Below, piece by piece: positions 19,835 through 55,641 of a stretch of DNA of 62,273 bases. This DNA is from Candidatus Altimarinota bacterium (GTDB lineage Bacteria; Patescibacteriota; Gracilibacteria; BD1-5; UBA6164), in contig JAOARJ010000005.1 of assembly GCA_025210615.1 (NCBI GenBank), positions 1 through 62,273 of the forward strand, read 5' to 3'. The first letter of the stretch is position 1. Each line of letters begins with the position of its first letter. Under the pieces are notes generated by a model. The model was not told the origin of the DNA, did no database searches, and saw nothing but the letters and a program-made list of their open reading frames with translations. Position numbers and translations under genes: made by a program.

Positions 19835-20830
19835 ATGCCAGAGATTTTTGGAATTACATTTTTGGATTATTATTATATTTTTTTGATTATTTTAGCTATT
19901 TTATGGCTTATTTTAGATTTTTTTGTGAATAAAAAATTCTGAGTTTATTTTGAATTTTTAGAAGATGTTAAAAAAGTTTATAAAAAAAGTAGCTTGTTTT
20001 ATTATTTAAAAAAAGTTTTAATTTTAACTATATTTTTGGCTTATATAGTTGTTTTAATGAATCCAAATGTGATGACTAAAGAAAAAAAAGAGCTAAAGCC
20101 TTGAATTGATATTGTTTTTACGCTCGATTTATCTTGGTCAATGTTAGCTTCTGATTTGAAACCAAATAGGCTTGAAGCTGCCAAAAATGTGATAGAATGA
20201 TTTATAAAAGATTTGCAAAGTGATAGAGTTTGACTTGTTGTTTTTGCTTGAAAAACTTTTACTTCAATGCCGCTAAGTCTTGATTATAAAACGGCTTTGG
20301 ATAAAGTAAATCAGATGACGATTGATACAGTTTCAAAACATTCTATGGAGCTTTTATGAACAGCGATTTGAGATTCTTTGCTTTATTCAACTTCTTTATT
20401 TAATGAGGAAAGCGAGAGAAAAAAAGTTATAATTTTGATAACAGATTGAGTTTCAAATAGATGATATACACCTTGAGAAGCTGCAAAATTTGCTAAAACA
20501 AAGGGGATAACTCTTTATACAGTTGGTGTATGAGGTTATGAAAATGTTTTTATCCCAGAACTTTGATTAAATATCACTTGAGTAAATGACAGATGACTAA
20601 ATTTTTTAGCTCAAACATGAGCAGGAAAGTATTATAGATCTGATGATAATGAAGCATTAAAAAATATTTTTGAGGAGATAGAATCTTTGGAAAAAACTAA
20701 GTGAGAATTAGAAGAAAAAAGTTATTTTAATCCGATTTACTTGCCATTTGTATTAGTTGTAATAATGTTAGTATTTTTCTTGTTTTATTTGGAATATGCG
20801 TATAAATTAAAATTTAAATTTAAAAAATAA
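19835..20830 (+). CDS. VWA-domain membrane protein, BatA-like
   Basis: A 331-residue protein with two N-terminal membrane helices (about 12-31 and 60-76), an extracytoplasmic von Willebrand A domain and a C-terminal helix (about 300-325). The MIDAS metal site is complete: DLSWS (D98, S100, S102), a later Thr in the ELLGTAIGDSL region and ITDGVSN. BatA proteins sit in the membrane with MoxR ATPases and are linked to stress tolerance and envelope integrity. The TAA stop overlaps the ATG of the next gene (TAATG). Confidence 0.88.
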
Positions 20831-21813
20831 TGTTTTCGAATTTTAATATATTTTCTGTGATAATTTTTGTTATAATAGTAATTATAATGTATTTTGTGTT
20901 TACAAAAAAGTTATATTTACAAGAAAATTTTTTAAATAATTATGTTTATAAATTATCGCCAAAAATAAAGTTTTTTAGTATAGTTCTAGCTTTGATTTTT
21001 TTATTAATTGCCTTTTTAGAACCTAGATGATTTGGTTATGATAAAGCGAAAACTACTTCTTGAAATACTATATTTGTTTTGGATGTGACAAAAAGTATGA
21101 ATGCTCTTGACTATAGAGATGATGAGAAAAAAAATATTTATTCTAAGCTAGATACTGCGAAAAAAATCATTTTAGATATAGTAGAGGAGAATAAAGAAAA
21201 TAATTATTGATTGCTTGTTTTTGCTTGAGAACCTAGAGTTATGTCGCCATTAACGACTGATGAAAATAGTTTTAAAAATTTATTAATAGCGAGCGATTCT
21301 AATTCTGTGAAAACAAATTGAACAGATATAACTTCAGCTTTAAATAGAGCGATAGATATGTTTAAACCAGAAAATAAAGCAAAAAATATAATATTGTTAA
21401 CAGATTGATGAGAAGAAAAAAATGATTTTCAAATAATTAATAATACTATAAAACAAGAGAATATTAAACTTTTAACCATTGGGCTTTGAAATAAGCAGTG
21501 AAGTTTTATCCCTGATTATACAAATCCGTTTTGAGAAATAGTTTATAAAAAATATAATTGAAAAAAAGTAGTAACCTTTTTGAACTCGGGGAGTTTAAAT
21601 AATTTAGAGGGGGAATATAAAGAATTTTTGGATTTTAAAAATCTTGATAAATTAAAAAAAGAAATAATTTCGGCTAATGATAAATTACTTAATGATTATT
21701 TTTTGAAAGACAAAAAGAATTTAACGAGAATTTTTGTGATGTTTTCGTTTGTGTTATTTTGTTTTTACCTTATAATTGACTTGTTTGATAAAAAAAGACA
21801 AAAATTAATTTAA
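20830..21813 (+). CDS. VWA-domain membrane protein, BatB-like
   Basis: A 327-residue VWA protein with N-terminal helices (about 8-25 and 45-63), the VWA domain and a C-terminal helix (about 302-318). The MIDAS motif reads DVTKS (D85, T87, S89) instead of DxSxS; Thr can still ligate metal but this is a difference from BatA. LLTDGGEE supplies the second Asp. It overlaps batA by one base, so the pair is translationally coupled and likely works as a heteromeric complex. Confidence 0.85.
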
Positions 21814-21837
21814 ATTTTTAATAAAAAAGTAAGAAAT

Positions 21838-23475
21838 ATGAAAATTTTAGAGAAGAGAAAATTAGCTAGTTTATTAGTTACTTGAGCGATATTTTTAAAT
21901 ATAAATTCAACTTTAGCTCAAACAGTAAAAATAAATAATTGAGAATGAAATGTTCAAATTATAAACATAAAAGTTACTCCGATAGACCTTAAGAAAAAAG
22001 AAGTTTCAAGAGAAGAGGCTTTTACTTTTATGGCAGAATATACAAAAGAAATTCCAACAAGTTATAAGTATATAAACTTGAATTTTAAGGGAATAGATAA
22101 AGATGAAAAAATATATGATAGTCTTCAAAGATTAGTGTATATTGATGCGATTAGAAATATGAAAGTGGATTTAAACTTAGATGAAAAAATAAATATTTAT
22201 GACTTTTTTATCCTTATAAGAAAAGTAACTTGAGAGAATTTTCTTATTTGAAATGATCCAGAAAAATTAAAAAATCTTACGCTTAATGCTTATGATGTAA
22301 AAAGAGTAAAAAATCATTTAGAGTTGCTTGATTTTTCAAGAAGTAATGATGAAATTAAACAAAAAGAATTAGATAATAATGAACATTATTTAATTTTAAA
22401 AGATGTTTATGAAACGCTTAAAAATAAATTTTTATGGAAAGATGATTTAGATAAGGAAGAAATGTTTGCTCATGCTGCTCAAGGTTTAGCTGAAGCGACT
22501 TGAGATAAACATACTGCTTATTTATTACCAGAAGGTGATGAAGCTTTATTTAATAGTTTGAATAATTCTTTTGCTTGAGTTTGAGCCTATTTAAAACAAA
22601 GAAATTCAGGAGAGTTTATGATTGATTGAGTTATTGAAGAAGGGCCTTCAGATAAAGCTGGATTAATTGCCTGAGATATTATAGTAGAAATAGATTGAAA
22701 AGATGTTTGAGATATAGAAAATACAAAGGGATTACTTCCTTTATTAAGATGAGAAATATGAAGTGAAGTTGTTTTAAGAGTGAAAAGATGAGCAAGAATT
22801 TTAGATATAAAAATTATAAGATGAGTTATTCAATTAGATAATGTAACTTGAGCAAAAATTGAAGATAAAGATAATACTTATTATGTAAAAGTTAGAGCAT
22901 TTGGAACGAATACTTTTTCTTGATTTAAAGAGCAAATTAAAGAAATAAAAAAGGATAACACTATAAAAAATATTATATTTGATTTGAGATGAAATCCAGG
23001 TTGAATAGTTTGAGAAGCTCAACATATGCTTAATTATTTTTATCAAAAATGAGAGCTTATTTATAATGTAAATGGTGCAAATAATGATAAAGATAAAATT
23101 CATTCAACTTGAATTTTAGATAACGAAAAAGAAAATTATGAAATAGATTTTTCTGACTATCAAATTTATATTTTAGTTGATTGAGATACTGCATCTGCTG
23201 CTGAAATGTTCACTGCTTGAGTAAAAAATAAATTCCCAGACACAAAAATTATTTGAGAAAAATCTTATTGAAAAGCGTCTATGCAAGCGCTTAGAAATTA
23301 TAGAGATGGTTCGCTTTTGAAATATACAATTGCTGTTTGGACAATTTGAGAAAATGAAATTAAAATTAATGGAGTATGAATAACTCCTGATTTAGAAGTA
23401 GAATTTGATGCTGAAAAATATAAAAATGAAGATATAGACACTCAACTAAAAGCAGTTTTAGATGAGATAAATTAA
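21838..23475 (+). CDS. ctpA: C-terminal processing protease, S41 family (CtpA-like) with PDZ domain
   Basis: A 545-residue exported serine protease. The N-terminus has a signal-like segment (ASLLVTGAIFLNINSTLAQ). A long N-terminal region (to about residue 200) of unknown function precedes the protease. The PDZ domain contains GEFMIDGVIEEGPSDKAG, and the catalytic dyad is S453 in DTASAAEMF and K479 in SYGKASMQ. Such enzymes trim or degrade envelope proteins and can activate hydrolases. Placement within a Bat-like operon, between BatB and BatC-type genes, is unusual and suggests it acts on or with the VWA complex. Confidence 0.9.
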
Positions 23476-42090: not shown

Positions 42091-44088
42091 ATGAAAACAC
42101 AACAAATAAAAAAAATATCAATAATTTTATTGCTTTCTATAGCTCTAAATTTAATAAATAACTCGGCAGTATTTGCCTTAAAAAAATCAGATTCAGCAAG
42201 AATATTGGATAACTATAAGGATTCTCAAAAGGAGATGATTTTTAATAGTAATTATGGTCTTAATGAAGAGGATTTGGAAGTTTTTAAAAAGGCTGAAAAA
42301 GTGAGAGTGTATGATTTTATCAAGGATAGAATGGAAGATAAAACAGAGGATACCAAGAAAACTTTGCAGTATTATAGTGATAAAAAATTAACACTTGAAG
42401 GTTTATTAGAACAACTTGACTGAGATATTGAAGATAAAAAGGTTCAAATAACAAAAATGAATGTAAAAATAGGTTCTTTGTTATCGAATATAACAAAAAC
42501 TAAGAAGGAAATAACTGAAATTGAAGAAAAAATTCTAGAAAATAGAAAAGTTTTACTTGATTATATGGTAGGTGTTTATAAAACTCAAAATACGATTTAT
42601 GAAGATGGTAAAGTTGATGCTTTAAAAATGATTTTACTTGATTGATGAAATATTTGAGATATTTTAACTGATTATAATTTTAAGAATTTACTTGAAACAA
42701 CAGGTAATAAATTAATCGCTAAACATAGAGATTATACTGTTGAATTAGTAGAAAAAAAATGACAATTATGAAAACAAATTAACCAAACAAGAAAAAATAA
42801 AAGAGAGACAGAATTAACTAAAAAAACATTAGAAGAAAAAAGACAAACAAAAGAAAAATTATTAAAATTAACATGAGGAAGGGAAGCATTATTTAAAAAA
42901 TATGTAAAAGAACAAATTAAAAAAGAAAGAGAGATGAGAATAAAATATTTAACTGCTAAATTAAGTTTTGATAAAGTTCAAGATGAATTAGCAATTAAAT
43001 ATGAATGTCCAAATTTATTTAGAGTCAATACAGAAGCTATAACAAATGTTTCTGATAAGTGTATTTCATTAGAGAGAATCATAAGAAATGAATCAAAATT
43101 AAAAGATTCAAAAGAACATGTGCAATTAGAATGGCCAATTATGCCGGAATACGGATTATCTTCTTATTATAGAGATAAACAATATTTAAATAGATTTGGT
43201 TCTACTCATGATGCAATTGATATTGTAGCACCGCAATGAACTGAAATAAAAGCACCAGCTGATGCTTATGTTTTATATGTGAAACCAGCTAAAGATGAAA
43301 GTTATTCATTTGTAGCATTAAAACATGCTGATTGATTAGTTACTGTTTATGGACATTTAAGTAAATCTTTGGTAAGTCAATATGATTTTGTTAAGAAATG
43401 ACAGGTTTTTGCTTATTCTTGAGGAGAACCACTTAGTAAATGAGCTGGATTAATGACTACTTGAGCTCATCTTCATTTTGAAGTTTTAAAAGATGAAGTA
43501 GCTAAAGATCCATTAACTTACCTTGATTTAACAGTGTTAAAGTTAGAACAAATTCCTCATAGTAAATATATTTACAAATATTATGATGATTTCAAAAAGA
43601 GATTTTGAGATGAAGATTTACCAGAAAGTAATTTAGTGTTTAATATTGATTGAGAATCTGAAATTGAAAGACAGAAGAATTTTATAAGAATTTATTGAGC
43701 AAATGGATTTAATAATTGGAATATTTGGGTAGAGGAAGCGCAGGAGGCTCATATTGATTCATCTTTTGTCATGTGTGTATGATTAGCTGAAACTTGATTA
43801 TGAACAAGATTAAAAACGAGAAATAATGTGTGAAATGTATGAAATACTGATTCCTGAGCTACTAAAGAATTTGATTCACCAAGACTTTGAATTTATTGGA
43901 TGGCAATGACATTTAATAACAAATTTTTAAAGAATCATAATACAATAAGTTCACTAAGTAGATATTGAAATTCAGATGGTACAATATATGCGTCTAGTAG
44001 CGCAAATTGGCATAATAATATTATAAAATGTATGTCGTCATTAAAAGGAGAATATGTTCCAGATGATTATAATTTTAGAACTAAATAA
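42091..44088 (+). CDS. Exported M23 peptidase with coiled coil and glucosaminidase-like domain
   Basis: A 665-residue exported protein. Signal-like start (IKKISIILLLSIALNL), then a long coiled coil (about 80-330), a LytM/M23 zinc endopeptidase domain with HDAIDIVAP (H373, D377) and GAHLHFEV (H460, H462), and a C-terminal part (about 540-665) with VGLAETGLGTRLK, NNVGNVGNTDSG and GIYWMAMTFNNKF that looks like the glucosaminidase/lysozyme-like fold with a candidate catalytic Glu. So it could cut both peptide and glycan bonds in peptidoglycan. The first two parts resemble EnvC/NlpD-type. The glucosaminidase call is by eye. Confidence 0.88.
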
Positions 44089-44097
44089 ACTTTGACT

Positions 44098-45069
44098 ATG
44101 CTTTTTAAAACAAAAATAAAAATAAGGGGGAAAATAATCGCGTTATTAATAGCTTTACTGACTCCAGTGATGGTATTTGCTGCGAATAATAATTTAACTA
44201 GAGCTGAAGCTGTTAAAAATTCATCGCAAAATAATATTGAGAATAGAGATGCTGCTCAACAATGATTATTTGAAAAATTTACAGCAGATTTTTTCTTGAA
44301 TTTACTGTTATGATTACTAGTTTTGGTTGCTACAGTATTAATTGCTAAGCTTGCTAGAAATAGGCTTGTTGATATTTTTGAAAAAAAGATGTGATGAGAT
44401 ATGTCTTGAGACATTGCTTGAGTTGTTTTCAGGACAGTTAATATCGTTATTTGGACTATTTGATTTACCACAGCATTAGCTTTATGGTGAGTAGACTTAG
44501 CTTTTCTTATGTGATGAGTTTGAATTTGATTAGGTTTTACTATGCAAGTGTTTTTATGAAATTTTATAAGTGGTCTTATTGTTATTTTTTCTTGAGATTA
44601 TCAAACTTGAAAAATCATTGAAATAGCAGGTCAATTGGGGACAATAAAGAGAATAACTTCGATGTTTACAACTATTGAAAAATATGATTGAACTTGTTAT
44701 AATGTACCGAATATAAAATTTTTACAAGATGAAGTATTAGTTTATAATTTGAATTCAAAGAGGAGAGTGGATATAGATTTTTGAGTTGAATACACTACTG
44801 ATTTAACACAAGTAAAAAAATTAGCAATAAAGGTCACTGAAAGTTTTCCCGTTATCTTACAAAATCCATCAGTGAGAGTATTAGTAAGGGATATGGAAGA
44901 TGATTGAGTTGTATTAACGCTTCAATTTTGGGTAGCTTCGGATGAATGATTTTATCAAATTAAATCAAATGTGACAGAAACTTTGAATATGGTATTTGAA
45001 CAAGCTTGAGTTCAGATTAAAAAGAGAAAACTTGAGGTTAAACAAGTTGAAAAATTTCCTAGACAATAA
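44098..45069 (+). CDS. mscS: Small-conductance mechanosensitive channel MscS
   Basis: A 323-residue channel that opens on membrane tension to release solutes. A signal-like N-terminus (LLIALLTPVMVFA) precedes three helices. The pore helix has LAFLMGGVGIGLGFTMQ with the Gly/Ala pattern of MscS TM3, followed by NFISGLIVIFSGDYQTGKIIE, and a cytoplasmic beta domain (VYNLNSKRRVDIDFGVEY). Several pore glycines are UGA. It starts 9 bp after the M23 gene, so cotranscription with a wall hydrolase is likely. Confidence 0.93.
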
Positions 45070-45070
45070 T

Positions 45071-45098
45071 AAAAACACCTTGAAATATAGGTGTTTTA
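45071..45098 (+). terminator. Intrinsic terminator after mscS
   Basis: AAAACACCT pairs with AGGTGTTTT (45072-45080 and 45089-45097). Confidence 0.8.
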
Positions 45099-45109
45099 AA
45101 TTTATTTTA

Positions 45110-45137
45110 AAAGCTCACTTAATTATAAGTGAGCTTT
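45110..45137 (-). terminator. Terminator at the 3' end of the macroglobulin gene
   Basis: AAAGCTCACTT (45110-45120) is an exact complement of AAGTGAGCTTT (45127-45137). Confidence 0.75.
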
Positions 45138-45142
45138 ATATA

Positions 45143-48100
45143 TTATTTAATAATCACAACTTTTCAAGATGTTCTTCAGAATACTTCTGGAGTATAAAAT
45201 TCTCAAACCTTTGTAGGTTTTAATTGATATTCTCAAGCGTGAGTAGCTCTTAAAATATAATTAAAATTATGTTTGCCAGGATAGAAATAATTTCTAAATC
45301 CGAAGAATCTATCATTGCGTAATTCTGTTTTATCTAAGCTATAATTTTTTACTTTTTTAGCTAAACTTTCAGTTTCTAATTTAGTATTAACTAATTCAGT
45401 TCAAGCTGGAATAAAACTCTCTAAATAAACATTTTTTCTAGTTTCATTATTTATGATTTCTCAGTGAGCGAAAACTAATTCTCCAACTTTAAATTCTTTT
45501 AACTCAGTTAAATAACTAATAATATCTTTTTGATATTTACTTTCGCTATAACTCATATCTCAAGAATTTATTTTCGCTTGTTCTTCTTCTTGTAAGGCTT
45601 TAAATTTAGTATATTCGTTATAATCATAATATTTTACAGTGATACCAAATCATTCATCTCTAGCCTTTATTAATCTACTATCTTTATAATAATTTAACAC
45701 TAAATCATAATAGATATTTCCGCTTCAATTTTTTTCTATTACAAAGTCATTTTGTTTTTTGAAATCTTTTAATTCTATATTTTTATTAAATACTTCCAAT
45801 TTATTTGTGTTATCAATTTTTTGAGTAGCTATTTCAGTTGAATTTAGTTTTAAATTAGCGATTATTTTCACATTTTTTAATTCTCATGAATTTTCTAAAT
45901 ATTTTATAACAGCTTTTACTACATTGATATTATTTTGAGTGCTACCGTATCAAGATTCAGTTTTATTGCTATTTAAATATTTTATCATTTTGTAAATAAT
46001 TTCATCTATATCTTCAAATTTTTCTAATCAAATATTACTTGCTACCTCAATGAATTTCGCAGTCATATCAGTAGAACTATATCATTCAATAAAAGCTCAT
46101 CTAGGATTATAAACTAAATTATTTGTTATAATTTTATTTAAAATATCTAATGCTTTTTTCTCTAAAATATTTTTTTCTTCTTGAGTTATATCAGTTTTTA
46201 TTAATTTACTGATAAGTAAAGCATAATTTAATTTATCTAGATTATTAAAATTTTCTTCTTTATATTCAAGAGTTTTGAATGCTTTATAAGCGTATTTTTC
46301 TTCAGTTTTACTGTCTAGTAATGCATTTATAGCACTTAATTTTTCACTGTAACTATATTCACAGTTATTATATTTTGTTACAAAACAATTTTCTTTTCTA
46401 TTTTTTTCTAATCTAGTTTTTAGATAATTTGTAGCTTTATTTATAGAGTTATTATCTAATTTATATCAAATTTTTTCAAATTCTTTTAAACTAGAAACAA
46501 GATAACTTGTTAGATAAAAATCAGAAACAAGGTTCTTATAAGTTCCTGTAAAATAGACAAAACCTCCATCATTATTTTGGAACTTATAGATTCAGATTAA
46601 ATATTCTTTGATAACATCATCTAAACTGACGTCAATATATCAAGTATTTTTATCAATATATTTTTTGAGAAATTGTTTAGTTAAATCAAATTCTAAATCA
46701 GCATTATTATAAAGTTGTTTTATAAATATTGTTGGTAATATGGCTGAAGTTTTTTGTTCACTACAACCGTAAGGATAGTTTTTTAAAGCATTTACTGCAG
46801 TAACAATATTTCAAAGTAAACTAGCTGAATAATTTATATTTAAGTTTCAAGCAGTATTTTTAAATCCTGTTAAATCTATTTTTTCGGAAAAAGAATTACT
46901 TGTTGCTTTTCAGCTTGTAGCCACGATTTCTTTTGTTGAAGTTTCTCTGATAGGAAGAATTTTTTCTATTTCATCAACGTCAAGTGTGATGCTATTTTCA
47001 GCTTTGATATTAACTTTACTACTAGCTGAATTAGTATTTCACATTATAGCGATATCTTTTACTTTTACATCAAAGTTTACTGTTTGGCTTTCTCATTTTT
47101 TCAAAATTATTACTTTGGATTTCTCTCAAATTATCTCAAAATTATCTTCAGTTAAGCTAACTTTTATGCTAGAATCTTTGTCAGATTTATTGAAAATAAC
47201 AGGGGACAAAGTAATTTTATCATTACTTCAGAAGAATCTAGGAAGATTATCACTAATTAGTAAATTTTTTGATGTTTTAAAACTTGAATATCAGATTCAA
47301 ATTTGATTAGTATCAGCTTTGTTGGCGACAATTTCTACATTCCAAGTTGTTAAATTATCTGGAAGAGCAGGGGAAACGATTTCCGCGTTTCAATTTTCAT
47401 CAGTATTAAAATCTGCTAGCCAGTAAGCTGTATCTTTAAAAGTTCATCTTTTTTTAGTACTACTTCATCATTTTAACTTTTCTCAATCTCATCATTTTTC
47501 TCACTGCGTTGCGTCTACCACTTCAAGTTTTTCAATTAAGTTTACAAGTGATAAATAAGTATTAACTCATAAATATCTTCTCATATCGTAGAAAAATGCA
47601 AATGGATTTTTCTTTGAGTTTCATTTAAGGGCTAGTAAACTTTCATCTACTATTGCGATACTTCAGTTTGTATTAGCGACTGGTTTACCTTCTTGGTCAG
47701 TGATTTTTATGTTTAATTTAACTTGCGCTCATGGCAGGTAATTTGTTTTATCACTATTAACTTTTACATTTAATTTTTTATAATCAGTAGAAACTTTTAC
47801 AATTCATAAAGCTCTTTTATAAACAGGAAGTGGATTTTCTCAATCCTTACCTAATAAATAAGCTTTAAAATAAACATTTGGATAATAGTTATCTTTGATT
47901 TTTACTTTAAAATGAGGAGCATTTGAATCAATTTTTTCTACAAAATAATCTAAAATTCCATCATCTTTTTCAACTGTAATCATAATAGTTCAATTATTTA
48001 CAGGAGATTGAACAGTAAATTCTGCAGTATCTCAAGTTTTTAATAATTGTTTTTCTACTGCCATTGTTGTCGTATCATTATTTCAATTATTAAACGATAC

Positions 48101-51100
48101 AAAATCTTTTCAAGCAGCATAAATATTTGAACTAGATAAGAAAATTTTATTATTACTTCAAGTATAAATTGCTTCTATTTTATAATTTCAAGCATTTTTT
48201 AGTTTTATATTTTTCAGATTAAATTTTCATTTATTGTCAGATTTAACTTCTTTTTCGCTAATAGGCGTTTCTACCAGGCTATATTCATTATAAAATACTC
48301 AATCTACACCTTCTTTTTTAATATTTTTCCATTCTTGTTTGATTATTTTGATTTTTGCTTTTGTATTAGCTTTAGGTTTAGCTTCTAAATCAAGAATAAC
48401 TCAAGAAATATTTATATTATTTTTTTCTTGATAATACTTAGTATTAAGTCAAATATATCAGTTAGTAGAATGCAGAATCTCAGAAACTTTTTTTGTTACT
48501 GTTTTTTGAGTATTAGGGTCTTTAACACTAAAATTATAAGTATAAATTTTTTCTCAATTTACAATATAATCATTATCAAAATATTCATATCTATCGACAG
48601 TAGGGTAGTTATATTCGAATTTTCATTCTCAATTTTCGTCTATATCAAAGTTTTTATTATCGATATATCTATCATCATATCAACAATTTCACCAGTATAA
48701 ACAAGCGAAATATTTATATCATTCTCAGAATTGATAATTTGAATAATCTTTTGCATCGAAGAAATAATCTTGAGTTGTAATTTCTACTTCTGCGCTTGTA
48801 TTAGTCATTTTTCCTCCGAAATAATAACTAGGTTTTATAATAAAACTTGTTTTATCTCAGATTAATTTTAGTTTATTATTTACAGCTTGAGCATCTACTT
48901 TAAAGTCAGGCTTTCTATATTCTTCAATGAAAAATTCTCAAGAATTATCTATATAATTATAAGAAGTTCATTTTTCATATTTTCCTTCAAATTCAAATTT
49001 AAATCTTCATAATTTTACATCTTTTGGAAGAGTAAATTTTGTATTAAAATTAGAATTTTTATCTATTTTAATATTAAGTGTTAAAACTTCTTTATAATCG
49101 CTAGAAATAACTTTTAGTTTTCAAGTTTTTATACTAGATTTTTTGTATCAGTTAAAATCAAAATATCTAAGTAACCCTTTTACATAAACAGTATCACCAG
49201 GTTTATAAAGTGGTCTATCTGTGTACAAGTATAAATAATCTTTTTGGCTAGAATCTTGTCCTCAAACATAATTTAAATCGCCATTATAAGCAAAGTCGTT
49301 ATCAGTGCTTAAAATTCAAAAATTATCTTTATCTCATACTACAATTAAATTTACATCTTCTTTAAATTCAAAAGCTCAAGTTTGTTTATTAATAGTATAT
49401 TTAACATTAATTTTTTCTATAGAATCTTTATTTGTACTATAATTATAATTTTCTTTATAGAAAATAGGTTTTATATTGTTTATAACTTTTTGTCAGAATA
49501 AATCAGTGACTAATAAAATATTTTTATTATCAGCTTTTTCTAATGCTAGAGCTAAATTTGACCTAACATAAATATTTCTAAATTCTCTTTGGTCATCTTT
49601 ATATCAGTGGTCTAAATTAAATCTTCCATCGCTACTTCATCTTATTAAAATGATTTTAGAATTTAATTTTTTTCAGACAATATCTTTTTCAATATCAAAT
49701 TTATTATTAGTTAGATTCCAAAAATTATTTTTTGTTTCTAGAGTTTTTTCGTATTTTTTAACACATTTTGGATTATATTTTCACCAAAATTTAAAATCTG
49801 TATAACCTTGCATATCTAATTCACACACTTCAACAGTCACGCTATCAGTATTTATTGTTTGGATATTTGTTACGATTTTTTCATCTAAAGGAATTACATT
49901 TACAGGTCTTGTAAGCCCATTATAAACATATTTATCTTCCTCTTTAATGTCTCCAGTTATAAATTCTTTGTTAATTTCTTTTTTAAGATGATTAAAATAT
50001 CTATCCGTAATTCCAGTTTTTAAAGTGAAATTATACTTCATATAAGGCGCTAATCTTAGGTTTATTACATATAAGTCTTGTCATTCTGGGGCCTCCTTAC
50101 AATATCATTCTTTTTCTAAATCAACATTATCTTTTTTTCTTAAATCCCAAGGAATATATTCATAACTATCTATGCTTTTTATTTGTGATTTAGGCTGAGT
50201 AACTATATTTTCTCTCAGGCTATTATAGTTTAGATTAATAGTATCGCTAACATATAAACAAGCCTTATTATAACCTAAAATTTTAAAACTTTTAATTCAA
50301 AAATCATCTCTAGTTTTTATAGGAATAATAATTTTTTCTTTTAAAGACTTACTCGCAGGAGTTCTAATTACTAAGTCATAAAGACTATTTTTTTTCAAAT
50401 CAGGTAATTCTATTTTGATAGATTTTTTATTGTCTTCTAATTTTTCTTCATCTATTTTTTTTCAATAATCATTATTTTTTTCTGGTTTTATTTTATTGTA
50501 ATTAATGCTTTTAGGGTATAATCACATTCAATCAGGTCAATATAATACGAAATTATTTTTATCTAATTTAACTTCTTCATTAAAATTTAAGTTGAAGAAA
50601 ACATCTTTTTGAGGTATAAAATAAGGAACATCTATTCATCCTATATTAGATTCTCTATAAAATTTTGTATCAGTTTTTTCTCATTTATCATTATAAATAG
50701 CCTTATAAGCTTTTTTATCTGTAAGAAAATTTATAGTTTCTCTTGTATAATTTATCTCTGATTTTGTCTTTTTATTTCATCAAATAACATTTATTCAAGG
50801 TTTAATATTTATTGTATAACTACTTGAATATTCAAAATTATTGTTTGTTAATTTTACTATAAAACTAGAGTTTGAATTATTATTTTTTTCTATATTGAAT
50901 GCTAATTCTTCTCAAGAAGCGGATTTTATATTTAAATTTTGTTTTAATGAATCTAATGGAATATCAAAATTTGTGCTGATTTTTAGTCACTTAGTAGGAT
51001 TAAAATAATCTTTTACATTGAATTTAAAATCAGGAGTAGAAAAATTACTTTCTAAATCACTATCTAAAGCGTATAAAAAGGCATTAGAGTCTTTTTTAAT

Positions 51101-51805
51101 ATTCACAGAATAATCACTGAATCAAGTATATTGTTTCGTTGGAATAAATTCTAGAGAGCTAGTCGAAGTCCATTTACATTTTCATTCTACTTTTGGAGTT
51201 ATTTCAATTGGACACTCCCAAGAGTCTTGCTCATCTAGACTAGCTAAAGGTACCATAGGAGCATTAAATAATACCAAAATACTTTGGTCTAAATTACTTA
51301 ATTCGCTATTTTCTTCTGGTAATATTTTTATAATTTTAGGCGCATTAATTATTTGGACATTGTATAATTTTTCTTGCAATAAATTATCTCATTTGTCATT
51401 TTTTAGGGCTTTACTAAAAGTAAAACTATAATTATGATTTTTTTCTAATTTAGTTTCAGGAGTAAAGATTATTTTATTTTTTTCGCTAGAAAAGGTTCAA
51501 GTTAAAGCAGGTTCTATATTTATGTTTTTATTATTTACAGTGTTAGAATTAACGTCTGTATTAAAGTAAAAAGTAATATTTTCAGCATTTTCAGGAACTT
51601 TTTTATAGGTTTTATCAAAGTCACCAGAATAAGTTGTAAAATATCACATATATCAAGGATTTTCGCTTTGAATTCAAGGATTTTTATCAGAATTATTTCA
51701 TCAAAAAAATGATAATCCAAAAAATAATAATAGAGCGATAATAAGTGCTCAGGCTGATAATAGTAAGTATTTCACGTATTTATTATCAAAAGCTTTTATT
51801 TTCAT
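45143..51805 (-). CDS. Alpha-2-macroglobulin family protein (2220 residues)
   Basis: The largest gene: 2220 residues, with no in-frame TAA or TAG when checked codon by codon in the minus frame. Bacterial alpha-2-macroglobulins trap attacking proteases by a thioester that reacts after cleavage of a bait region. N-terminus: a membrane helix (KYLLLSAGALIIALLLFF, residues about 12-31) instead of a lipobox. Then Ig-like and macroglobulin domains. The thioester motif GCSEQ is at C1681-Q1684 (YPYGCSEQKTS). In proteobacteria such genes (yfhM) pair with pbpC, which is divergent next door here. The bait region cannot be read. Confidence 0.9.
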
Positions 51806-51892
51806 ATAGACTTAAATTTATATAAATAAAATAATTATTGCCTTTAGTATAAGCAAAAAATATATATACCAAAAAGAAAATGTAACTTTTTC

Positions 51893-51920
51893 TTGCAAGT
51901 TTCATTCTATATTATATAAT
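51893..51920 (+). promoter_or_regulatory. Promoter for pbpC
   Basis: TTGCAA at 51893-51898 and TATAAT at 51915-51920, 16-bp spacer, 30 bp before the ATG. Confidence 0.7.
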
Positions 51921-51950
51921 TAAGAAAATAAATTAAGTTACATATTTTAT

Positions 51951-53978
51951 ATGAAAAAGCATTTAAAAAAAATATTATTAGGTTTTTTTGTTTTATTTAT
52001 AGCCACTTTCGGTTATTTTTATATGACAACAAATATTGAGGAAATTCCATATTCAACTATTATTTATGATATAAAATGAAACGAAATAGCGGAGATAAAT
52101 TATGGAGAGTTTAGGCATAGATATTTGGATATTGATGATTATCCAGATTTTTTAAAAAGGTGAGTAATTTTTTTGGAAGACAGAAGTTTTTATAATAATA
52201 TTTGAATAGATTTTTTGGCTATTTTTAGAGCTGTTTGGAGAAATTTTGAAGAGGGGAAAGTTGTAGAATGAGCTTCAACGATTTCGTCACAACTTATTAG
52301 AAATACGACTTGATTAAATGAAAAAAGAACTTTTTGGAAAAAGTTGCAAGAATTTGGCTTAGCAGTAGTAATAAATGCGAAGTATAGTAAGGAAGATATA
52401 TTAGAAAAATATTTAAATAATGTGAGTTTTTGATATATGAATTTTTGATATGAATCTGCTAGTTATTATTATTTTTGAAAAAGTGTAAAAAACCTTACTA
52501 AAGCGCAGTTGTTAGCACTTATGGTAATACCTAAAAATGCGATAAAATATGACCCATATAAAAAATTTGAACAGTTTAAAATTAGATATAACTTGATTTT
52601 AAATTTATTTAAAGAAAATTGAATTATAAGCGAAGAAGATGAAATTTTTATAAAAAATGAAAAAATAGAGTTTAATGAAAAAAATAAACCAAAATTACCT
52701 TATATAAAGGATTTTTTAGAAAATAATTATATCGAGCAAATAAAATGAAAGAAAGAAATTTATCTAAATATTGATTATTTTTTGACTAAAAAAGTTGAAC
52801 ATTTAGCTAAAAATGTCGTTGATAAGCTATATTGGAAAAATGTTCGTGATTACGGCTTGATAATTTTGGATAGGCATACGAGCGATTTAAAAGTAATGAT
52901 TTGAGGGTATTCTTATGATTGACCTAATGGTCAGGTAAATTCGGCTTTAAGGCCTAGACAAGCGGGTTCTACTATAAAACCTTTTACTTATTCACTGGCT
53001 TTTAAAGATTTGTGATGGGATAAAAATACTATAATTTTGGACTTGCCAGTTGAGTTTAAAACGGATAAGTGATACGCTTATAATCCGAAAAATTATTCAT
53101 TAGACTATAAATGACAGGTGTCAGTAGCTCAGGCTTTATCGCAAAGTTTGAATATTCCAGCTGTGAAAACTTTATATGAGGTCTGAGAAAAAAAATTGCT
53201 TGATTTTTTGAGGGATTTAAAAATTACTTCGCTTGATAAAGATGTTTGATATTATTGACTTGCTTTGACTTTATGAGTTTGAGAAATTAGCTTATTTGAG
53301 CTAACTAGAAGCTATAATATTTTTGCTCAGGATTGAAATTTTTGTGAAATAAATATTTTTAAAAATAATAGTAAACAAACTAATTGTGAGAAAAAAATAG
53401 ATAAGAAAATTACTGATGAAATAACTGAAATTTTGACAAATAGATTTTATAAATTGGAAGGTTTTCCTGTGAATAGCGCTTTGGATTTTTGAAATAGAAA
53501 AGTTTTTGTAAAAACAGGAACTTCAAGGAATTTTAGGGATAATTGGGCTATGTGATTTACTAAAAATTATATTATATGAGTTTGGGCTTGAAATAAAGAT
53601 TGAAGTGAAATGAAATGAGTTTCTGGGGCGACTTGAGCAGGACAAATTTTTAGAGAAATTGTTGATAATATAGAAAAAGATTTTGATGAAATAAAAGCTC
53701 CGAATATTCAAGAAAAAAATAAAGAAAAATATTTAAATATTATCTCTCCCTTGCCAAATAGTAAGTATAAATTAGATGAATACAAGCAAGAAAAAAATCA
53801 AAAAATAAAACTTGATTTTGTGACAAATATAGAGTATGATAGCGCAAGATTTTTTGTGGATAATAAAGAAGTAGAAAAATTTTATACGCCGAAAAAATGA
53901 ACACATATTTTAGAAATAGTTTTGTTTAAAAATAAAGAAAAAGTAGGAGAAAAAAATTTAGTTTTTGAAGTAAAATAA
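51951..53978 (+). CDS. pbpC: Penicillin-binding protein 1C (bifunctional)
   Basis: A 675-residue class A PBP with a membrane helix (about 7-25), a glycosyltransferase GT51 domain (FLEDRSFYNN with catalytic E76; GASTISSQLIRN), a transpeptidase domain with the nucleophile S340 in AGSTIKPF, SQSLNIP (SxN) and KTGTSRN (KTG), and a C-terminal biPBP domain (LNIISPLPNSKYKLD). It polymerises and cross-links peptidoglycan. It is divergent from the alpha-2-macroglobulin gene, the usual partner, and shares its start region, so the pair likely responds together. Confidence 0.95.
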
Positions 53979-53979
53979 A

Positions 53980-54849
53980 ATGCCTGAAAAATTAATAAAT
54001 TTTCTGAAAAACAAAAATATTAAGCTGAATTTATATAAGCTAATTTTTTTGTGAGAATGAAAAAATAAGGTTTATACTGATGAAAAATATATAATTAAAA
54101 TTTGAAAAAAAAGTAATTTGCAAAACGAAAAAGAAATTTTAGAGAAAATAAAAAATAAAATAAAAGCCCCTATTTTTGAAGGTTTCTTTGAATATAATGA
54201 GAATTTTAAATGAGAATATATTCTTATTTTAAGATTAGTAAAATGAATTGCCGTAAATAAAATTTGGAACAGTTTATGAGTTTATCAAAAGCAAGAAATA
54301 GCATATAGTATTATTGATGAATTGAAAAAATTACATAACTTAGATAAGAAAAAAGATGAATATATTTTTACGTCAGAATTAAAAAATTTTCAAGAAAATT
54401 ATAAAAAAGTAATGAAAAATGTAAAAAATTTGAACAAAAAAAAGTTAGAAAAATATGCAAGAGAATTCGCTGATTTTTTAGAAAAAAAATGAGATTTAGT
54501 ATTGATTCACAATGATTTATGGTATAAAAATATTATTGTAGATGAGTGAAAATTTAGATGATTTATAGATTTTGAATTAGCGAAATTTTCTCTTAAAGAA
54601 GCTGAATATTTTAGATTAAAATATCATTTATTTTTTGCAAAACTAGAAGAATCAAAAGTAGAAATAGAATTTTTAGAATATTTAATTTGAGAGATGAAAA
54701 AGATTTATCAAGATTTTACGATTTATGATAATAAAATATTTAGAATTTATAATATTATAATGTATTTTAGTTTGGCTTCTAAATACGAATATTCATGGTA
54801 TAATCAGAGTGATATTGATGCGTTTGAAAAAGAGTTTTTATTAAAATAA
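53980..54849 (+). CDS. Aminoglycoside-phosphotransferase-like kinase (APH family)
   Basis: A 289-residue kinase-like protein. N-terminal lobe has KYIIKIGKK for nucleotide binding; the catalytic loop is VLIHNDLWYKN (H177, D179, N184) followed by FIDFELA with the second Asp. This is the choline/aminoglycoside-kinase fold; the true substrate in CPR is unknown. It starts 1 bp after the pbpC stop, so it is in the same transcript. A role in wall or lipid precursor phosphorylation is inferred from that. Confidence 0.85.
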
Positions 54850-54927
54850 TTTATCTTTTGCAAAAAATGAAAAAATATACTAAACTATTATTATCTATAA
54901 AATTAATTTAGAAAATAATAATAAAAT

Positions 54928-55641
54928 ATGTGAAATTTTGAAAATGTTTTTAAAGCAGAAGAAAATACTTGTACTAGAAAAGGTGTTTATTATAAAGAAG
55001 CTTGAGTTATTTTAGATGATGAAAATCAGGTTTGCGTATTATGAAAATCTTGAGAGGTTAATGAAAAAAAAGATGGTTATATTAGTAGTAAGGAAGAACT
55101 TATAAAAGCAGTAAAATGAGAATGAGAAAGGCTTAGAGAGGAGGTTCTTGAATTAATTGAAGTGAAATTGTTAAGAATTGTAGATTGAGATACTATTGAG
55201 GTTTTGTACAGATGAAGAAAAGAAAAAATCAGGATGATTTGAATTGATACACCAGAAAAACATAAATCAAAAAAAAGTAATCGGTTAGTAGAATGTTTTT
55301 GAGTGGAAGCATCCGCCCATTTATGAAAATTATTAGCTTGAAAAAACATTTTTTTAGAGCCAGAAAGAACTAAATGAAGATTAAAATTATGAGAGCAATT
55401 TTCTAGATGAAAATATTGGAGAATTTTAGCTTATGTATGGGCTAACTGAGAAAATATAAACTTAAAAATGATAAGAGATTGATATGCTTATGAATATACT
55501 TATAAAGGTAATGAATATAAATATCAGCAAATTTTTAAAGATGCTCAAAAATATGCTAGAGAAAATGATAAATGATTATGGCATCCTGATAGTTGTAATG
55601 GGGAAAGAGAGATGAAAAAAATAAACTCTAAAATTAATTAG
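54928..55641 (+). CDS. Thermonuclease (SNase-like) family protein
   Basis: A 237-residue protein. Residues 1-80 form an N-terminal region without a signal peptide; the second codon is UGA (ATG TGA). The SNase domain follows: VKLLRIVDGDTIEVLY, IRMIGIDTPE, the Arg/Glu positions of KYWRILAYVWA and INLKMIRDGYAYEYTY, KYQQIFKDAQKYARENDKGLWH. Such nucleases cut DNA and RNA with calcium. Without a signal peptide the location is unclear. The N-terminal CTRKGVYYKEAG is of unknown function. Confidence 0.87.

Follow-up and report, generated by a model that had tools for sequence, protein, structure and literature searches.

So far, bacterial alpha-2-macroglobulins (A2Ms) with the peptidoglycan synthase PBP1C have been understood as a backup defence behind the outer membrane. 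The two proteins form an established pair, for which the hypothesis of "inhibit and repair" was put forward (Budd et al., 2004, as cited in PMC4498604). In the structures of the E. coli and Salmonella A2Ms, the thioester is kept and released by two tyrosines preceding the CxEQ motif, by the C-terminal RDDR and EXMY motifs, and by a tether in the bait domain (F947-N963), which after cleavage binds to the C-terminal domain through Arg956 and other residues (PMC4498604). Vampirococcus lugosii, a single-membrane relative using the same genetic code as the locus described here, encodes two large A2M-domain proteins, Vamp_6_203 (2368 aa) and Vamp_19_245 (1895 aa), inferred to reside in the membrane and proposed as a guard against host proteases, a reading of epibiont defence that is already in print (PMC8080830). 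That account mentions no PBP partner, and the word "penicillin" is absent from it (PMC8080830). A2M homologues have also been reported in metagenome-assembled genomes of Gracilibacteria from hydrothermal vents, which shows the family to occur in more than one order of the class; the part of that study considered here contains no analysis of gene pairs, thioesters or subtypes (PMC9793634). Our literature search, which covered few subscription journals, returned no paper joining macroglobulin, Patescibacteria and penicillin-binding.

Here, we describe an A2M and PBP1C-like pair from a probably monoderm member of the Gracilibacteria. The new result is the coupling: in these probably monoderm bacteria, A2M and PBP1C are inherited together and in matched types. 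The window, the whole stretch of 62,273 nucleotides analysed, belongs to a genome of 1.25 Mb in 16 contigs (96% complete). TGA encodes glycine (table 25) across the entire window (1-62273), and the A2M gene alone contains 97 in-frame TGA codons. We rejected a standard-code reading of the region, because it yields no gene: not a single ORF of at least 150 aa is found at 44000-55500. With table 25, the region is densely coding. Code 25 is used by every A2M-bearing locus that we read in the order. Nearly all genes of the window are missed if it is annotated with table 11. The pair reported in the initial annotation is real, as both ORFs are open in table 25 at exactly the coordinates below and their Pfam domains score over the cut-offs. 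The features of the locus are as follows.

45072-45137, no strand: two hairpins, likely terminators, between the convergent ends of the MscS and A2M genes (hairpin scan).
45143-51805, minus strand: A2M of the bacterial type, type I of the order, 2220 aa (table 25 ORF).
45185-45517, minus strand: C-terminal macroglobulin domain (bMG10/CTMG), with RNDR (2163-2166) and EFY (2202-2204) as counterparts of the E. coli RDDR and EXMY (Pfam and alignment).
46415-46822, minus strand: thioester domain (TED) match, residues 1662-1797 (Pfam and model).
46754-46768, minus strand: thioester motif GCSEQ, residues 1680-1684, with Cys1681 and Gln1684 (motif check).
47420-47578, minus strand: bait segment and tether, residues 1410-1462 (RYLG...EKLEVVDATQGEKGGDGEKLKGGSSTKKRGTFKDTAYW), by alignment to the E. 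coli bait R923-L942 and tether F947-N963.
47627-48061, minus strand: bait-region domain match (A2M_BRD), residues 1249-1393 (Pfam).
48977-49234, minus strand: MG2 domain, residues 858-943 (Pfam).
49256-51703, minus strand: N-terminal extension, residues 35-850, a chain of Ig-like beta-sandwiches (Big_5; Pfam and model).
51710-51766, minus strand: predicted N-terminal signal-anchor helix, residues 14-32, preceded by lysines and without a lipobox (Kyte-Doolittle 2.53).
51806-51950, no strand: divergent intergenic region between A2M and PBP1C, 145 bp (ORF coordinates).
51951-53978, plus strand: PBP1C-like bifunctional peptidoglycan synthase, type I, 675 aa (table 25 ORF, Pfam, NCBIfam and tree).
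52077-52604, plus strand: GT51 glycosyltransferase domain with the EDRSF motif (Pfam Transgly and motif).
52860-53600, plus strand: transpeptidase domain with STIK, SLN and KTG (Pfam Transpeptidase and motifs).
53718-53921, plus strand: C-terminal region of PBP1C with a sub-threshold BiPBP_C match (16.8 bits, cut-off 26.8).

The Pfam domains found above cut-off in the A2M, namely MG2, A2M_BRD, A2M, TED and bMG10, in addition to Big_5 in the N-terminal part, follow the domain order of the bacterial YfhM/ECAM type (MG2, bait-region, A2M, TED, bMG10). The nearest solved structures by sequence are those of E. coli YfhM and the Salmonella A2M (E 2e-20). We modeled the two halves of the protein with AlphaFold, obtaining a mean pLDDT of 84.7 for residues 1455-2220 and 85.6 for residues 35-850. 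The Foldseek top match of the modeled C-terminal half is the native E. coli A2M (E 1.7e-33), and the native form (5a42, TMq 0.50) fits this model better than the trypsin-activated one (4ziq, TMq 0.35). By VIA-align, the same half also matches animal A2M, TEP and complement proteins with Z about 24-31. Animal A2M, complement C3/C5 and the TEPs, which are secreted proteins, thus share the fold over the TED-CUB-CTMG half, although the window A2M is nearer by sequence to bacterial A2M than to any of them. The fold search with the N-terminal half returned an Ig-like chain, the MG0-NIE-MG1 part of E. coli A2M ranking second. We gave up the assignment of single domains within this extension, because the matches are generic Ig-like chains.

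Compared with the E. coli yfhM-pbpC pair (ECAM and PBP1C), the window pair shares the A2M domain order, the CxEQ thioester, the switch residues and the class of the partner enzyme. The differences lie elsewhere. The window A2M has about 570 residues more than E. coli YfhM, mostly at the N-terminus, where its extension is the longer one, and a membrane helix takes the place of the lipobox LAGC of YfhM. Whereas the E. coli genes are co-directional and reside in a two-membrane cell, the window genes are divergent, as the initial annotation had stated, with 145 bp between them, in a genome without outer-membrane markers.

The thioester motif is intact together with its protecting tyrosines (YPYGCSEQ; Tyr1677, Tyr1679, Cys1681 and Gln1684), which agrees with the retained GCSEQ noted at the outset. 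The window A2M further retains the switch residues, consisting of the tether GGDG with R1453, RNDR, and EFY in place of EXMY (Met to Phe). The same motifs recur across Patescibacteria as YPYGCSEQ, RNDR, GGDG...KKRG and EFY, the last being EMY outside Gracilibacteria. With the thioester tyrosines, RNDR, EFY and the tether all retained, conservation at the sequence level extends beyond the fold to the cleavage switch. According to the initial annotation, a buried thioester cysteine would refute the trap. This condition is invalid as a test, because the unactivated Salmonella A2M also keeps its thioester hidden at the TED-CTMG interface before bait cleavage (PMC4498604).

The thioester is retained by nearly all A2M members, together with the tyrosines that protect it. 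When the 2182 windows of the type I alignment are ranked by conservation, the bait and tether region comes 13th. The bait region of animal A2Ms, by contrast, is hypervariable. Such strong conservation of the bait is unlike the prediction of an arms race against varied host proteases, and we therefore rejected a hypervariable bait driven by an arms race for type I. The thioester cysteine has been lost in a few paired A2Ms (L077 in the order; L180 and L183 elsewhere), which implies that covalent capture is not indispensable.

Several other family members were also observed. In the type I A2M of L077 (7690-14271), YPYFGAEQ replaces the thioester motif, and a PBP1C still adjoins. A third A2M type without CxEQ occurs as an extra copy in L043 (7810-14271), L053, L058, L060 and L081; the type III A2M of L043 starts like a lipoprotein (LFLFSC), with a lipobox present. 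Among the Chloroflexi relatives (L152-L205), CxEQ is mostly missing, several possess a lipobox, and some adjoin a class A PBP (L167, L173 and L192).

The N-terminus of the window A2M begins with lysines, followed by the strongly hydrophobic helix, and inspection of it revealed no lipobox. The helix might also be cleaved off as a signal peptide. Because the lipoprotein peptidase LspA is encoded inside the window, lipid anchoring was available to the cell but not used for A2M. The initial annotation had noted a membrane helix in place of a lipid anchor, and this stands. We rejected a reading of the helix as an adaptation of this cell, as a membrane helix starts nearly all A2Ms in the order and no lipobox was present among the other Patescibacteria A2Ms examined; a helix is the rule in both. 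Searches of the 96%-complete genome for two outer-membrane markers, Omp85 and LpxC, gave no match, so the cell likely possesses one membrane, as had been proposed. Micrographs of Vampirococcus, which shares the genetic code, show a single membrane (PMC8080830).

The partner enzyme carries intact catalytic motifs in both domains. Its best NCBIfam model is PBP_1c (TIGR02073), with 419 bits, below the equivalog cut-off of 494, which the PBP partners in Peregrinibacteria/Peribacteria exceed. Both type I and type II PBPs score highest to PBP_1c, and the housekeeping PBP to PBP_1a_fam. The hairpins between MscS and A2M indicate that A2M is probably its own transcript, and our scan for sigma-70-like promoters found sites no more frequently than in shuffled sequence. 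On the other strand, an M23 peptidoglycan peptidase and an MscS-type channel (42091-45069) directly adjoin A2M, forming a neighbourhood of wall and osmotic-stress genes. On the far side (53980-55641), an APH-fold kinase gene starts 1 bp behind pbpC and precedes a staphylococcal-nuclease homologue; these genes may share one transcript with pbpC.

We then turn to the inheritance of the two genes among 60 genomes of the order, a tally including the window's own genome. All 60 carry a GT51 gene, and 44 carry A2M. Two or more GT51 genes are present in 42 of the 44 A2M-positive but in only 2 of the 16 A2M-negative genomes (Fisher p 7.6e-10, a value which, like the other co-occurrence p-values given here, ignores shared ancestry). 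Three of the four exceptions are G057 (78% complete), G028 (90%) and G054, the last without the housekeeping GT51 that occurs in nearly every other genome of the order. We rejected the idea that the A2M-negative G028 and G057 keep an A2M fragment beside their PBP-I gene, as none was found on the stretches examined. The association extends to the class outside the order (7/8 A2M-positive vs. 3/28 A2M-negative genomes, p 1e-4) and is weaker in the wider phylum (12/19 vs. 92/325, p 0.003).

The GT51 tree resolves three monophyletic groups: the housekeeping PBP1A-like enzymes (about 1,060-1,110 aa), type I, to which the window enzyme belongs, and type II. The A2Ms sort into types I, II and III, of which types I and II are each monophyletic. 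A type I PBP accompanies type I A2M in 18 of 19 genomes, the remaining one being the fragmented G048, and type II A2M occurs with a type II PBP in 25/25; no genome mixes the types. The two Vampirococcus proteins match A2M types I and II in size, a likeness of size alone. The pairs are also kept or lost together at short range. One genome of genus g9 has the type I pair, another the type II pair, and a third (83% complete) neither; in genus g2, a 98%-complete genome lacks both genes while its sister has both; genus g24 contains both states, pair present and pair lost.

The genes also tend to be neighbours. In 21 of 49 cases, A2M has a GT51 gene no more than 10 kb away, where 1.7 such cases would be expected, although linkage is incomplete within the order (e.g., the genes are 95 kb apart in G019). 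In the type II relatives, A2M precedes PBP on the same strand. Scanning the named genomes with the window A2M as single query gave nothing, whereas an alignment query gave matches. In named Patescibacteria outside Gracilibacteria, PBP lies within 4 ORFs of A2M in 13 of the 14 loci that have 3 kb on both sides. Arrangements there are convergent and often overlapping (14), A2M then PBP (4), or PBP then A2M (2), and Gracilibacteria add the divergent one, the window's own, as a fourth. That the two genes were rearranged repeatedly yet stayed neighbours speaks for selection on the pair. Joint keeping and loss, together with the two matched versions, suggest from gene content that trap and wall builder act as a single device, also where no outer membrane is present.

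Sequence and comparison show the parts of the pair with their motifs conserved, a genome without outer-membrane markers, and each A2M type inherited together with its own PBP type. These results fit a membrane-tethered, cleavage-triggered protease trap coupled to wall repair by PBP1C, an explanation that we favour with moderate confidence. A2M would presumably be displayed on the outside of the single membrane, held by its N-terminal helix, with the string of Ig-like domains spanning between membrane and trap. A protease reaching the wall, presumably from the host, prey or neighbours, would cut the bait segment. The freed tether (GGDGEKLK...KKRG) would then replace the thioester domain on the C-terminal domain, exposing the Cys1681-Gln1684 thioester, by which the protease may be caught covalently, and peptidoglycan made by PBP1C could mend the local damage to the wall. 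A pair with an intact cleavage switch in bacteria without a sign of an outer membrane indicates that the pair does not depend on that membrane. It thereby becomes possible to test for a direct link in function between the trap and the synthase.

A tentative alternative, which we regard as rather unlikely, is that A2M acts mainly as a cleavage-triggered sensor or scaffold, the cut bait causing a change of shape that recruits or activates its own PBP1C, with protease capture being secondary. It is favoured by the occurrence of each A2M type with its matching PBP type and no other, by the rank of bait and tether among the most conserved stretches, and by the paired A2Ms without a thioester cysteine; the thioester and the protecting tyrosines, kept in nearly all members, speak against it. 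If true, single-membrane bacteria would possess in this pair a device for alarm and repair, of which at least two matched and non-interchangeable versions exist, and its basic purpose would be other than the trapping of proteases in the periplasm. We consider it improbable that A2M is an adhesive or structural giant surface protein with an inherited core unused as a protease trap. Its long N-terminal Ig-like chain is as similar to the folds of adhesion and S-layer proteins as it is to A2M, and giant surface proteins of Vampirococcus are thought to serve host contact (PMC8080830); however, pure adhesion needs none of the thioester, bait, tether and C-terminal switch residues kept over deep divergence, and it leaves the pairing with PBP1C unexplained. 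A mere accident of gene order without shared function, as might be suspected from divergent genes that form no operon and lie far apart in many relatives, is highly improbable in view of the co-occurrence, the type matching and the repeated adjacency in four different orientations.

An episymbiotic lifestyle has been widely inferred for the phylum. Beyond the order, A2M was found in 14 of the 36 genomes in the rest of the class and in 48 of 380 genomes sampled across the phylum. The 16/60 genomes of the order and the 332/380 of the phylum sample without an A2M match speak against a necessary role in attachment. Being common yet not universal, A2M cannot be a requirement of episymbiosis. Its interpretation as epibiont defence is plausible, already published and not new; A2M remains a candidate for surface defence in bacteria living attached to others, although many relatives do without it. 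Elsewhere in the window (19835-23475), two VWA-domain proteins precede a PDZ-S41 protease, so the cell has an exported-type protease of its own by which exposed proteins could be cleaved. In the window's genome, seven matches to the type II/IV secretion-pilus ATPase family (G000:C4, C10, C11 and C15) fit type IV pili.
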